Source of the DNA: Variovorax terrae
Lineage (GTDB): Bacteria > Pseudomonadota > Gammaproteobacteria > Burkholderiales > Burkholderiaceae_C
Direction: 5' to 3'
Length of the DNA stretch: 64,000 nucleotides
Assembly (NCBI RefSeq): GCF_022809125.1
Contig: NZ_JALGBI010000001.1
Location: 2,232,001 to 2,296,000, forward strand
This document shows positions 14,203 through 18,368 of the stretch, piece after piece; the first letter of the stretch is position 1, and every line of letters begins with the position of its first letter. A model generated the notes under the pieces. It ran no database searches and had not been told where the DNA came from. It was given only the letters and a program-made list of their open reading frames with translations. Position numbers and translations under genes: made by a program.

Positions 14203-14856
14203 GTGCAAGACCTCGCCCGCCGCCTCAACGACCTGTTGCCGCAGACCCAGTGCACGCGCTGCGGCTACCCGGACTGCGCGAGCTACGCGCAAGCCATCGC
14301 CGCGGAGGGTGCCCCCCTCAACCAGTGCCCGCCCGGCGGCGCCGAGGGCATCGGGCGGCTGGCCGCGCTGACGGGCCGGCCCGCCCTGCCGCTGAACCCG
14401 GCCAACGGCACTGAAGGGCCGCGTGCCGTGGCCGTCATCGACGAAGCCTGGTGCATCGGCTGCACCCTGTGCATCAAGGCCTGCCCGACCGATGCCATCG
14501 TCGGCGCCAACAAGCTCATGCACACCGTGGTCGAGCCGCATTGCACCGGCTGCGAGCTGTGCATCCCGGTCTGCCCGGTGGACTGCATCAGCCTGGAGAA
14601 CGTCAGCGGCGAGCGCACCGGCTGGGCAGCGTGGTCACCCACACTGGCCGCCCAGGCCCGCGATCGCTATGAATTCCATAGCATCAAAGCACGGCGGGAC
14701 GTGGACGATAACGAGAAAAGGCTCGAAACCAAGGCCCAAGCCAAGCTGGCAGACCTGCCGGCCCACACCCAAAGCGGCGATGCCGCCGAACTGGCCCGCA
14801 AGCGTGCCGTCATCGAGGCCGCGCTGGCACGGGCCAAGGCCCGGCGCAACGCATAG
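14203..14856 (+). CDS. RnfB-type ferredoxin protein
   Basis: 217 residues. An N-terminal 4Fe-4S motif of the RnfB/Fer4_4 type (CTRCGYPDC...NQCPPGG) is followed by two ferredoxin clusters, [12 protein letters not shown] and [12 protein letters not shown]. Proteins of this kind carry electrons for Rnf-like complexes, but the membrane anchor of true RnfB is absent and no other rnf genes are present, so it probably works as a soluble electron carrier. The C-terminal ~60 residues are helical and charged. A GTG start at 14203 is used, 13 bases after phaZ. Confidence 0.85.
14666..14682. repeat. Mini-hairpin inside the RnfB-like gene
   Basis: gctatgaattccatagc, perfect six-base arms (GCTATG/CATAGC), read through in frame within the 3' third of the ferredoxin gene. 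Same family as the other GCTAT copies. Confidence 0.6.
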
Positions 14857-15077
14857 CGGCCAGCGCGATGGCGCCGGTATCAGCCATTTCTGACACCAGA
14901 CTGAAACCACATCAGTATCCGAAGCATTTCCTGGGGCAAAAATGAACAAGGGTAATCCCTAGTACACACACCCTAGAATCCCTCACTTTCCTGAGAAGGA
15001 TCAAGGCGCCCGCGAGCACGACACGCTCCTGGCGACCGGTCCAAAACACAACAGAGACAAGGAAAGAGGGAGCATCG
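14857..15077. promoter_or_regulatory. Promoter region of the ATPase-phosphatase gene
   Basis: A 221-base AT-richer gap. It contains agggtaatccct (14949-14960, inverted AGGG/CCCT) followed by a second ACCCTAG...CCCT copy at 14970-14983. This looks like a paired binding site for a dimeric regulator. GGAAAGAGGGAG precedes the ATG at 15078 as a ribosome binding site. A loosely similar GGGTATC...TACACC block lies upstream of prkA. Confidence 0.45.
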
Positions 15078-16436
15078 ATGCAGCATCAGCACTGCCTGCA
15101 CGCCGAGGGATATGGGGTGGCGTTCGGCGACAAGGTCATCCTGGCCGAACTCGATTTCGCGCTGCGCGCCCAGGCCGTCACCGCGCTGCTGGGCCCCGCC
15201 GGCACCGGCAAATCCACGCTGCTGCGCTCGCTCGCCGGGCTGAACGACGGCAACCCCCGCTTCACCGCCTGGGGCCAGATCGAGTACCTGGGCCGACCTC
15301 TGTCTGACAGCCACCGGCCCGCGCTGGTGAAACAGAACGCCCGCCTCATGATGGCGTCGACGTTGCAGGCAGTGGCCGAGCTGGCCCGGCCGCGCCTGGC
15401 CCTGGGTCCGGCCGCGCTGCGCGACTGGTGCGCCGACTACGTCACGGCCATGGGCCTGCCCGAGCTGGCCGACCACCTGGATCAGCCGACGCTGGAGCTG
15501 CCCACCGTGCAGCAGCGCGCCGTCGCCATCCTGCGCGAGGCTGCGGCCGAGCCGGCACTGCTCATGGTGGACGAGCCCACGGCCGACCTGGACGAACACG
15601 ACGCCCACCTGCTGATCGACCTGCTGCAGCGCATCGCCCACACCTCGGCCCTGCTGCTCGTGGTGCACAACCAGCGCCAGGCCCGGCGGGCAGCGCAGCA
15701 CATGCTGCTGCTGGCCGGCGGCCGCATCCAGGAGGCCGGCGGCATGGAGGACTTCCTGGTGGCACCGCAGTCAGACGCCGGCCGCCAGTTCGTGCGCACC
15801 GGTAGCTGCGCGCTGCCTGCCCCCGGCGCCGACCCGGCCAGCCTGGCCGACGACGCGCCCGTGCCCCCGCCTCTGCCGGCCGCCGCCCAACGGGCGCTGG
15901 CGCAGCAACAGGCTCCAGCAACCCAGCTACCGCTGCAGGGACAGCCGGACGCGGTGCCCGCCAGCCGCGGCCCGCGCGGCTTCCACTGGCTGGTGCCGGG
16001 CCGGCTGGCCGGCACACCGCTGCCGGGCGTGGTGCAGGACATCGACCGCGACCTGGAGGCGTTGCGCCGCTGCGGCATCACCCGCCTCATCACGCTGACC
16101 GAGCACGACCTGCCCCAGGACGCCCTGCAGCGCCAGGGCCTGAACAACCTGCACCTGCCGGTACGCGACCGCGAACCGCCCAGCGTGGCCCAGATCCAGA
16201 TGCTGCTGCTGCGCATGGACCAATTGCTGCGCCGGGGCGAGGTACTGGCCGTGCACTGCCTGGCCGGCATTGGCCGAACCGGCACGGTGCTCGCCTCGTG
16301 GCTGGTGCGCGAAGGGCTGACCGCCGCCGAGGCGCTGCGCCGCGTGCGCCTGATCGACCCGCAATACGTACAGAGCGCCGAGCAGGAGGTTTTCCTGCAG
16401 CAGTACGAGGATGCAATCCTGCGCAAGATCATCTGA
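15078..16436 (+). CDS. PstB-like ABC ATPase fused to dual-specificity phosphatase
   Basis: 452 residues. Residues 1-230 are an ABC ATPase closest in pattern to PstB: Walker A GPAGTGKS (39-46), a Q in V-K-Q-N, Walker B LLMVDEPTADL (Asp165, Glu166) and the switch His in VVHNQRQARRA (His197). The ABC signature LSGGQ is replaced by L-P-T-V-Q (141-145). A Pro/Ala-rich linker (~235-300) leads to a dual-specificity/tyrosine phosphatase domain (300-450) with general acid Asp364 in VRDREPPS and the P-loop H-C-L-A-G-I-G-R-T-G (Cys394, Arg400). No transporter membrane subunit is nearby, so a cytoplasmic regulatory role is more likely than transport. It is followed by a roadblock-like protein 45 bases downstream. 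Confidence 0.88.
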   Translation: MQHQHCLHAEGYGVAFGDKVILAELDFALRAQAVTALLGPAGTGKSTLLRSLAGLNDGNPRFTAWGQIEYLGRPLSDSHRPALVKQNARLMMASTLQAVAELARPRLALGPAALRDWCADYVTAMGLPELADHLDQPTLELPTVQQRAVAILREAAAEPALLMVDEPTADLDEHDAHLLIDLLQRIAHTSALLLVVHNQRQARRAAQHMLLLAGGRIQEAGGMEDFLVAPQSDAGRQFVRTGSCALPAPGADPASLADDAPVPPPLPAAAQRALAQQQAPATQLPLQGQPDAVPASRGPRGFHWLVPGRLAGTPLPGVVQDIDRDLEALRRCGITRLITLTEHDLPQDALQRQGLNNLHLPVRDREPPSVAQIQMLLLRMDQLLRRGEVLAVHCLAGIGRTGTVLASWLVREGLTAAEALRRVRLIDPQYVQSAEQEVFLQQYEDAILRKII

Positions 16437-16481
16437 CACCTTTCACCCTTTTCCCCCCACGACCACAAGGAAATCTTCTCC

Positions 16482-16886
16482 ATGAATCTCGACGCTCTGC
16501 TGAACAAACTCGCCTCCACCGTCCCCGAATGCGTGGCCGCCGGCTACGTGGATGCCGCCTCCGGCATGCTGCTGGCCATCAAGACCGTGGACTCGCACCC
16601 GCGCGAAGTCATCGACCTGGTGGCGGCAGCCACGGCCGACCTGTTCAACGGCCCCAACGTCTCGATGATCGAACGCATGTTCAAGAAAGCGCGAGGCTTG
16701 CAGGACGACGGCCACCACTATTTCCAGGAAATCATCGTCAACAGCGACAACCTGATCCACGTGTTCCTGCGCGGCAAGGTCCACCCCGAGTACGTGGCCG
16801 TGTTCGTGTGCCGCCGCACCGCCAATCTGGGCATGGCCCTGACCAAGGCACGCTTGGCGATGCCCGAGCTCGAAGCCGGGCTCTGA
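16482..16886 (+). CDS. Roadblock/LC7-like protein
   Basis: 134 residues, no signal peptide or membrane segment. The N-terminal two thirds fit the roadblock/LC7 pattern: a first helix (LLNKLASTVPECVAAGYVD), a strand A-S-G-M-L-L-A-I, and a helix PREVIDLVAAATADLF. In bacteria such proteins dimerise and act on small GTPases, NTPases or kinases. Family assignment is by eye and only moderate. AAGGAAA precedes the ATG. It follows the ATPase-phosphatase fusion in the same direction and is probably co-transcribed, so the two may form one signalling unit. Confidence 0.65.
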   Translation: MNLDALLNKLASTVPECVAAGYVDAASGMLLAIKTVDSHPREVIDLVAAATADLFNGPNVSMIERMFKKARGLQDDGHHYFQEIIVNSDNLIHVFLRGKVHPEYVAVFVCRRTANLGMALTKARLAMPELEAGL

Positions 16887-16912
16887 GCTGGCCAGCCATC
16901 GGCACGCGCATC

Positions 16913-17284
16913 ATGAGCCCGTCCATCGAGGCCACGATCTACCACAACCCGCGCTGCGGCAACTCGCGTGGCGCCCTGGCGCTGCTGCGCGAACATGGCA
17001 TCGAGCCGCGCATCGTGGACTACCTGGCCATACCGCTGGACGCCAGTCAGCTGCGAGCCCTGGTGACGGCGCTGGGCTTACCGGTGCGCGAGCTGCTGCG
17101 CAGCAAGGAAGCCCTTTATCAGGAGCTCGGCCTGGACGACCCTGTCTTGAGCGAAACGCAGCTCATCGACGCCATCGTCCGGCATCCGGTGCTGCTGAAC
17201 CGCCCCATCGTGGTCACGCCGCGCGGTGCCCGCCTGTGCCGCCCGCCCGAGAAGGTGCTGGAACTGCTGCCAACGGGAGCCTGA
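16913..17284 (+). CDS. arsC: ArsC-family arsenate reductase
   Basis: 123 residues. Glutaredoxin-dependent arsenate reductase fold: N-P-R-C-G-N-S-R-G with the catalytic Cys15, GIEPRIVDYL, LLRSKE, and the C-terminal RPIVVTPRGARLCRPPEKVLELL carrying the conserved Arg residues. The shorter YfgD-like branch of the family has the same motifs, so true arsenate reduction is not assured; no arsB, arsR or arsH is nearby. It begins 26 bases after the roadblock-like gene and may belong to that operon. It converges on the 2-oxoacid oxidoreductase operon. Confidence 0.85.
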   Translation: MSPSIEATIYHNPRCGNSRGALALLREHGIEPRIVDYLAIPLDASQLRALVTALGLPVRELLRSKEALYQELGLDDPVLSETQLIDAIVRHPVLLNRPIVVTPRGARLCRPPEKVLELLPTGA

Positions 17285-17312
17285 CAGGACATCAACAGTC
17301 CGGCACTTTCGT

Positions 17313-18368
17313 TCAGCGCAGGCTCGCGTTGAGCTTGTCCAGCATGGCGGCGCCGGGACACAGCTGCTCGCGGCCCAGCGCATTGAGCGGCGTGGCGCTG
17401 GTGTTCAGGGCCTGGTGCAGGTCGCTGGCCTCCGGGTCCAGGTAGAGCAGGCCCGTCACCACCTCGCCGCGGGCCTGGTGCAACTGCACATGGTTCATCG
17501 CGGCCAGCCGGTCGGTCGGGTCGTAGCCCTCGTGCAGTTTGCGCAGGCGCAGCACGGTGCCGTCGTGCTGCGGCACGTCCACCACCTCGCCCGCGGGGTA
17601 GTCGGTGGTGATCTCGGTGCGTGGCGTGATGAAGTCGATGCGGCTCACCGCCTCGTTGTGCTCGCGCACGTAGTCGTAGCTCTTGGTGCTGCCCGCATGG
17701 TTGTTGAAGGCCACGCAGGGGCTGATGACGTCGATGAAGGCTGCGCCGCCGTGGCCGATGGCGCCCTTGATCAGCGGCACGAGCTGCGCCTTGTCGCCCG
17801 AGAAGCTGCGCGCCACATAGGTGGCGCCCAGTTGAAGAGCCATGCCAACGAGGTCGATCGCGCTGTCCGAGTTGAGCACGCCCTTCTTGCTCTTGCTGCC
17901 GCGGTCGGCCGTGGCCGAGAACTGGCCCTTGGTCAGGCCGTAGACGCCGTTGTTCTCCACGATGTAGACCATGCGCACGCCGCGGCGCATGGCGTGGGCG
18001 AACTGGCCCAGGCCGATGGAGGCCGAATCGCCGTCGCCCGAGACGCCCAGGTACAGCAGGCCGCGGTTGGCCAGGTTGGCCCCGGTCAACACCGAGGGCA
18101 TGCGTCCATGCACGGTGTTGAAGCCGTGCGAGGCGCCGAGGAAATAGTCCGGCGTCTTGGAGCTGCAGCCGATGCCCGAGAGCTTGGCCACGCGGTGCGG
18201 CTCGATGTCCAGCTCCCAGCAGGCCTGGATGATGGCCGCCGAGATCGAATCATGGCCGCAGCCCGCGCACAGCGTGGAGATCTTGCCTTCGTAGTCGCGC
18301 CGGGTGTAGCCGACCTGGTTGGTCTTGAGCGTGGGGTGATGCAGCTGCGGTTTGGCAATGTAGGTCAT
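17313..18368 (-). CDS. korB: 2-oxoacid:ferredoxin oxidoreductase, beta subunit
   Basis: 351 residues. TPP-binding subunit that decarboxylates a 2-oxoacid to the acyl-CoA, passing electrons to FeS clusters. Motifs: CAGCGHDS and GIGCSS (cluster Cys), GDGDSASIG and ENNGVYGLTKGQ (TPP and Mg binding), and DVISPCVAFNN. The start codon overlaps the stop of the alpha subunit gene as ATGA (18365-18368), a translational coupling. Substrate (2-oxoglutarate versus others) cannot be read from sequence. Confidence 0.9.
   Translation of the reverse strand: MTYIAKPQLHHPTLKTNQVGYTRRDYEGKISTLCAGCGHDSISAAIIQACWELDIEPHRVAKLSGIGCSSKTPDYFLGASHGFNTVHGRMPSVLTGANLANRGLLYLGVSGDGDSASIGLGQFAHAMRRGVRMVYIVENNGVYGLTKGQFSATADRGSKSKKGVLNSDSAIDLVGMALQLGATYVARSFSGDKAQLVPLIKGAIGHGGAAFIDVISPCVAFNNHAGSTKSYDYVREHNEAVSRIDFITPRTEITTDYPAGEVVDVPQHDGTVLRLRKLHEGYDPTDRLAAMNHVQLHQARGEVVTGLLYLDPEASDLHQALNTSATPLNALGREQLCPGAAMLDKLNASLR

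Follow-up and report, generated by a model that had tools for sequence, protein, structure and literature searches.

What might an ABC-type ATPase and a dual-specificity phosphatase (DSP) be doing in one polypeptide, and why should a small protein of the roadblock fold be encoded right behind it? The question is raised by two genes in the window, by which we mean the whole 64,000-nucleotide stretch of the Variovorax terrae genome that was analysed (contig C1, 2232001-2296000). The first gene (15078..16436, + strand, ATG to TGA) encodes a 452-residue fusion of an ABC ATPase, a Pro/Ala-rich linker and a DSP phosphatase, as recognised from Pfam, homologues and an AlphaFold model. The second (16482..16886, + strand) encodes a partner of 134 residues, called RBL here, which is assigned to the roadblock fold from its predicted structure. 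Roadblock proteins, known from bacteria up to the human Ragulator, have Ras-like GTPases as their partners, and a conserved roadblock next to an ABC-ATPase/phosphatase fusion would extend the roadblock logic to a different class of NTPase.

The fusion and RBL look like an undescribed signalling module that is conserved across many bacteria. The kinds of protein involved are known ones (ABC, DSP, roadblock and Group 3 MglA), and it is their combination that appears to be new: among the papers listed by searches of the open full-text literature, outside which most subscription journals fall, none describes an ABC-DSP-roadblock unit, as judged by titles and the starts of abstracts.

An ABC ATPase Joined to a Phosphatase

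Pfam and the alignment place the ABC_tran domain (PF00005, 58.6 bits for a cut-off of 25) at residues 23-169 of the fusion (15144..15584, + strand). The Walker A motif, GPAGTGKST, spans residues 39-47; it is followed by the Q-loop (Q86), the Walker B motif LLMVDEPT with D165/E166, and the H-loop VVHNQ, whose H197 lies just past the ABC_tran match. Of the motifs that define the ABC ATPase superfamily, only LSGGQ is absent, and LPTVQ stands in its place at residues 141-145. The phosphatase domain occupies residues 299-445 (15972..16412, + strand) and matches the families DSP-PTPase PF22784 (78.7 bits), PF22785 (78.5 bits) and, at residues 327-445, DSPc PF00782 (38.8 bits; cut-off 33.5). With the HCx5R loop HCLAGIGRTG (HC394x5R400), the general acid D364 and a PF00782 score above the cut-off, it has the sequence features expected of a DSPc domain. 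The original prediction had described intact Walker motifs and switch His, an altered signature, and a Pro/Ala linker leading to a complete H-C-x5-R phosphatase, and all of this holds within a single open reading frame (ORF).

The same features are kept among the homologues. The fusion alignment and tree comprise 70 loci and the window (71 rows); two loci with much longer proteins (L071 and L081, described below) and those without an ABC+DSP ORF were left out of the tree and of the identity counts. The Walker B Asp and Glu, the switch His, and the acid Asp, Cys and Arg of the phosphatase are present in all 71 fusions, the His before the Cys in 70, and the Walker A Lys and Ser and the Q-loop Gln in all of the 69 that have the column. 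None of the 71 has LSGGQ at the signature column; the sole LSGGQ elsewhere, in L077, lies at about residue 74 and is not at the signature position. A protein database search with the fusion, which scored just the 7996 candidates with the most words in common, gave 1251 relatives at E<=1e-3, and by eye both Pfam domains are found in all 120 of those listed; this is the search for homologues with both domains that had been proposed. The linker is variable in length among the homologues. In the AlphaFold model (mean pLDDT 92.9, pTM 0.64) there are two confident domains with a low-confidence linker at 282-289, and the interdomain arrangement is not fixed. As far as sequence conservation can tell, the fusion is a genuine conserved protein, beyond chance. 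From what is known of ABC enzymology, the replaced signature suggests slow ATP hydrolysis by its ABC domain.

There is also a tandem variant. In two Myxococcales-labelled loci (L071 6256-9903 and L081 6325-9903), a protein of 1192-1215 residues with two ABC domains and a DSP adjoins RBL. By eye, the first ABC domain has an intact Walker A and a poor signature, and the second has no Walker A and an LSSEQ. Such complementary degeneracy fits an ABC dimer whose ATP site is single and composite.

The Roadblock-Fold Partner

By prediction, RBL has the roadblock fold, and the assignment rests on the predicted model because the search of PDB sequences gave no meaningful match (best E 0.17). The downstream protein had been called roadblock-like from the start, and the predicted fold agrees, so the objection that a different fold would raise does not arise from the model. 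At the level of sequence, Pfam Robl_LC7 (PF03259) does not match the window RBL or that of locus L058 at E<=1. A profile-profile comparison with neighbouring roadblocks gave 71.8% over 45 columns, and one listed RBL relative (P0127) bears the UniRef name "Roadblock/LC7 domain-containing protein". The family itself is well conserved, with 38 invariant columns among 39 sequences. Its distant relatives, which show 27-33% identity at E-values of 4e-11 to 1e-15, are adjoined by a GTPase in 8 of 11 contexts and by a Robl-like gene in 7 of 11, from which we infer that an MglB homologue of such GTPase systems was probably the ancestor of RBL. At a further locus (L120 3262-5061), two tandem distant RBL genes lie beside a gene that by eye resembles a PP2C phosphatase.

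Conservation of the Pair

In the window, exactly 45 bases separate the fusion from RBL and 26 bases separate RBL from an arsC gene; these are the spacings originally given, and all three genes are on the + strand. A search of 14850-17350 brought up no sigma-70-like promoter and no terminator, so operon membership in the window rests on gaps and strand.

When RBL was used as the sole bait, with one genome per species, 185 matches were obtained, of which the best 80 were kept, amounting to 79 loci. The fusion is present in 73 of these, standing first in 67 and behind RBL in 6. ABC and DSP lie in one ORF in 72 of the 79 loci, at a median gap of 42 bases from RBL; in L055 only a DSP-bearing ORF is found beside RBL. 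All six loci without the fusion are at contig edges, five having no more than 146 bases between RBL and the start of the contig and one (L093) with the ABC half running into the contig end. Whether the roadblock gene stays beside the fusion had been named as a test, and the adjacency is stable in Proteobacteria and on four contigs labelled Myxococcales or Deltaproteobacteria. It had also been said that homologues with the two domains as separate genes, lacking the roadblock partner, would count against the idea. Separate adjacent ABC and DSP genes were not seen in the 79 loci; a fusion without RBL was found, in genome G339.

Genome samples of different breadth give a similar picture, with the proviso that only the 6-14 best candidates per genome were scored in the whole-fusion searches, which makes the fusion counts lower bounds. 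Among the 274 genomes of the class sample, the five with the fusion are exactly the five with a strong RBL (E<1e-50; Fisher 8e-11, without a correction for phylogeny). With the DSP half as query, nine genomes matched at E<=1e-12, these five and four with weak matches (G017, G120, G162 and G223; E 2e-17 to 1e-12) that gave no match in the whole-fusion search; the best frame of G017 scored 69.8 bits to the fusion profile vs 392.3 for the fusion of G339. The latter genome, first found as a DSP-only match, thus carries a full fusion, and it is the exception in the family sample of 120 genomes, where RBL is present in five of the six fusion genomes. No RBL was found in G339 at E<=1e-8 genome-wide, nor by profile in the 19 kb around its fusion. 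In the phylum sample the RBL profile matched 34 of 398 genomes, five of them strongly (E<=4e-60), namely the genome of the window (G000), G224, G165, G533 and G575; in G533 the fusion, RBL, GTPase and roadblock occur together. Spread by plasmids or phages was considered and set aside: no fusion match was obtained among plasmids at E<=1e-40, and a search of 50,697 phage records gave none for RBL, of which one copy was found in IMG/VR.

RBL can also be encountered in other surroundings. An extra copy, 82% identical to the window RBL (L132 8339-8803; G291:C1 about 3,412,400), sits among prophage genes for terminase, portal, HNH and replication initiation, directly downstream of an FHA-domain gene, and no fusion-profile match was obtained within the 17 kb around it. 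On the 71.5 kb IMG/VR contig IMGVR_UViG_3300033513_000003 (L172 7995-8402), an RBL that is a 67%-identity match to the lead sequence of the alignment has no fusion-profile match within 16 kb around it; by eye, a nearby gene there resembles an EAL domain. Genes adjoining the G339 fusion (L183 10095-10784) and the fusion on a Myxococcales-labelled contig (L114 7849-8493) resemble VOC/glyoxalase, again by eye.

The GTPase Cassette and Its Reduced Form

An MglA-like GTPase, counted at over 90 bits, is encoded near the pair in no fewer than 39 of the 79 loci. The number is a lower bound, and the loci called reduced include truncated ones, because in 10 of the 40 GTPase-less loci the sequence reaches less than 2.6 kb from RBL in one direction, and in one of these 10, L109, a GTPase fragment scoring 58 bits lies at the edge of the contig. 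One of the GTPase loci (L052) has no fusion, since its RBL is at the contig start. A conserved upstream protein, labelled SENS, is found in 35 of the 39, and a roadblock was detected in 32 by the query RB2 and in 5 by RB1. The GTPases carry GTPGQ in 32 of 39 cases. A globin lies near the pair in 31 of the 39 GTPase loci vs 10 of the 40 others; among these 41 globins, 36 are on a ferredoxin-type protein. Of the 18 loci that have a CxxCxxCC cluster, 16 also have the GTPase. Single representatives of the cassette proteins show, by Pfam, Robl_LC7, Bac_globin, Fer2/FAD/NAD-binding and CxxCxxCC domains. Upstream of the cassette in L051, L060 and L066 are PAS-rich histidine kinases (one with an Hpt), an HTH-receiver protein and an HD-domain response regulator. 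The premise that roadblock proteins regulate NTPases is a reasonable one here, given how often the MglA-like GTPase is found in related loci.

According to a 2014 paper (PMC4316618, Genome Biol Evol), Group 3 MglA systems combine a conserved receiver-like/wHTH protein with a homologue of MglA and one or two of MglB, and occur almost only in beta- and gamma-Proteobacteria. This neighbourhood, so described, fits as the frame of the full cassettes, and we infer from position and size that SENS is the receiver/wHTH protein of that scheme.

The window has the reduced form, with no MglA-like GTPase at the locus. The sole strong GTPase match in the same genome is about 0.75 Mb away (C1 about 1,499,600-1,500,430), and the roadblock match beside it falls below the cut-off (20.6 bits; cut-off 23). 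This region (L148 7683-10343, C1 about 1,499,000) encodes an MglA-like GTPase 45% identical to that of L058, three small genes downstream of it, one with the sub-cut-off Robl_LC7 match, and a 212-residue protein upstream. The one globin match of the genome is on another contig. In the fusion tree, the clade that holds the window is supported (100/99) and takes in 29 of the 32 GTPase-less rows; the remaining ones are L109 and the Myxococcota-labelled L074 and L114. All Comamonadaceae-labelled rows are within this reduced clade in the printed tree, which is rooted at the midpoint and does not prove loss over gain of the GTPase. In the same sampled family, G359 has the GTPase beside the pair. The genome G276, which is 99% complete, carries the fusion and RBL at two loci and gave no match to the GTPase at E<=1e-15, so the GTPase is not strictly needed by the pair.

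Transporter, Toxin and Oxyanion Readings

It is worth considering whether the ABC domain could power transport across the membrane through a permease from another locus, with the phosphatase as an accessory domain. The best fold and profile matches of the fusion are indeed importer ATPases, PstB first: E. coli PstB is the top Foldseek match (TM(target) 0.86, 24% identity), and the PstB model TIGR00972 is its best-scoring NCBIfam model, though at 107.7 bits it is far under the cut-off of 343.2. The fusion ranks 56th of the 94 matches to this model in its own genome, where the true PstB scores 394.8 bits at C1:1582998. The original label of a PstB-type ATPase was therefore wrong, and PstB itself is ruled out by score and rank. 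The accompanying remark that PstA and PstC are absent agrees with the Pfam scan, which found no permease among the five window proteins scanned. In a crude hydropathy scan, only 4 of the 73 fusion loci have an ORF with four or more hydrophobic segments within 2 kb (in one of them, L113, this ORF shares the strand of the fusion and lies 6 bases away from it), and there is thus no conserved permease neighbour. Together with the replacement of the signature motif in every aligned fusion, these results make a transporter ATPase very improbable and agree with the soluble module that had been proposed, the fusion being itself soluble-looking. The suggestion of a phosphatase of the polymorphic-toxin type is hardly credible: PF22785 is named for toxin systems and some database records read "phosphatase domain-containing putative toxin", but no trafficking or secretion domain is among the 25 of 30 Pfam families listed, the N-terminal ABC domain is conserved, and the operons of relatives contain signalling genes. 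A defence system was likewise rejected, PADLOC giving four partial matches to the fusion, all on the ABC half (the best to mad3, 42.5 bits, residues 145-211), and none to RBL or ArsC.

The gene behind RBL (16913..17284, + strand) encodes a glutaredoxin-type arsenate reductase of 123 residues, a genuine equivalog by TIGR00014 (151.3 bits; cut-off 106.05), and perhaps it is co-transcribed with the pair. Its closeness to RBL on the same strand had suggested a tie to phosphate or oxyanion stress, and an arsC does lie near the pair in 14 of the 40 GTPase-less loci. Within the stretches around RBL, however, none of the 39 GTPase loci has one, which leaves 14 of 79 loci overall, and its position varies, immediately downstream of RBL in 5 and upstream of the fusion in 9. 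The tie is not a general one: arsC is a lineage-restricted neighbour with a local link, and an arsenate/phosphate stress module made of the pair and ArsC is improbable.

Proposed Mechanism and the Main Rival

On balance we favour the reading that the fusion and RBL are central to a signalling module of the cytosol, akin to the Group 3 MglA/roadblock small-GTPase systems, in which an ABC dimer is the switch, RBL the regulator and the DSP the output. The ABC domain would bind ATP and form a dimer, with a turnover that is expected to be slow because the signature motif is replaced. An RBL dimer would dock either directly onto the ABC domain or onto a complex of ABC and GTPase, and set the nucleotide or oligomeric state of the ABC domain; this state, by way of the flexible linker, would control the access of a phosphorylated protein or other phosphomonoester to the DSP active site. 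In the full cassettes the input could perhaps be a redox, O2 or NO signal arriving through the globin protein and the GTPase, and in the reduced form the pair would act without a GTPase at the locus. RBL has been found without the fusion (L132 and L172) and the fusion without RBL (G339), and both count against this mechanism.

The main rival, which we consider rather unlikely, holds that RBL regulates the MglA-like GTPase and that the fusion is an effector of the GTPase, with the RBL of reduced loci working in trans on a GTPase elsewhere. It draws on the GTPase near the pair in about half of the loci (39 of 79), on RBL relatives that adjoin the same kind of GTPase without a fusion, and on the separate GTPase in the genome of the window with its sub-cut-off roadblock neighbour. 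Among the 120 family genomes, moreover, a GTPase is present in four of the five that bear RBL vs 9 of the 115 others (Fisher 4e-4, uncorrected), a count in which one GTPase copy of G359 is that of the cassette itself and the match in G291 is weak. Distance correlations bear on both sides. RBL and the fusion correlate only moderately over 70 loci (Spearman 0.52); over 38 GTPase loci the value is 0.59 for fusion and GTPase and 0.40 for RBL and fusion, which leaves room for a link of the fusion to the GTPase as strong as that to RBL. Against the rival, the value for RBL and GTPase is only 0.20. The pair is also tightly adjacent even where no GTPase is near, and the GTPase search of G276, with its two loci, came back empty at the threshold given above.

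If the switch mechanism that we favour is right, the fusion would provide the Group 3 MglA systems with a candidate output, namely dephosphorylation, and the linked globin would suggest a redox or gas input. It is possible, and we put it forward tentatively, that the pair represents a new class of protein phosphatase under nucleotide control, with a soluble, signature-replaced ABC ATPase as the switch and a roadblock re-targeted from Ras-like GTPases to an ABC ATPase; this class would belong with MglA Group 3 operons that take a redox input by way of the globin, and would exist as a free-standing two-gene phosphatase module in Comamonadaceae. The pair is, at any rate, a two-protein system that can be tested experimentally, in laboratory strains of Comamonas.

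Relation to Known Systems

Each part of the module has a known counterpart from which it departs. The fusion shares the ABC fold with PstB and the other ABC importer ATPases and differs from them in its replaced signature, its C-terminal phosphatase and the lack of a permease neighbour. Its phosphatase half resembles the single-domain DSPs 25xa and DUSP23 (2img), with profile E-values of 5.2e-39 and 4.9e-28, whereas the solved chains of these are 151-162 residues long and have no ABC domain. RBL is about 14-19% identical to the MglB/Roadblock-LC7 proteins (MglB of M. xanthus and T. thermophilus, human LAMTOR), and unlike them it has no Robl_LC7 Pfam match and has an ABC-DSP protein as its neighbour. 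At the level of the operon, the actinobacterial conservons CvnA-D, as described in PMC4316618, combine an operon-encoded roadblock, a small GTPase and signalling proteins, much as the cassettes do here, while an ABC-DSP protein and a globin are absent from that description. The closest frame is that of the Group 3 MglA systems, with which the full cassettes share the upstream conserved protein, the GTPase and the roadblock proteins. The words "phosphatase", "globin" and "ferredoxin" do not occur in the main text of the same paper; compared with the systems described there, the cassettes add the ABC-DSP fusion and usually a ferredoxin-reductase-globin, and in the window only the fusion and RBL are present.
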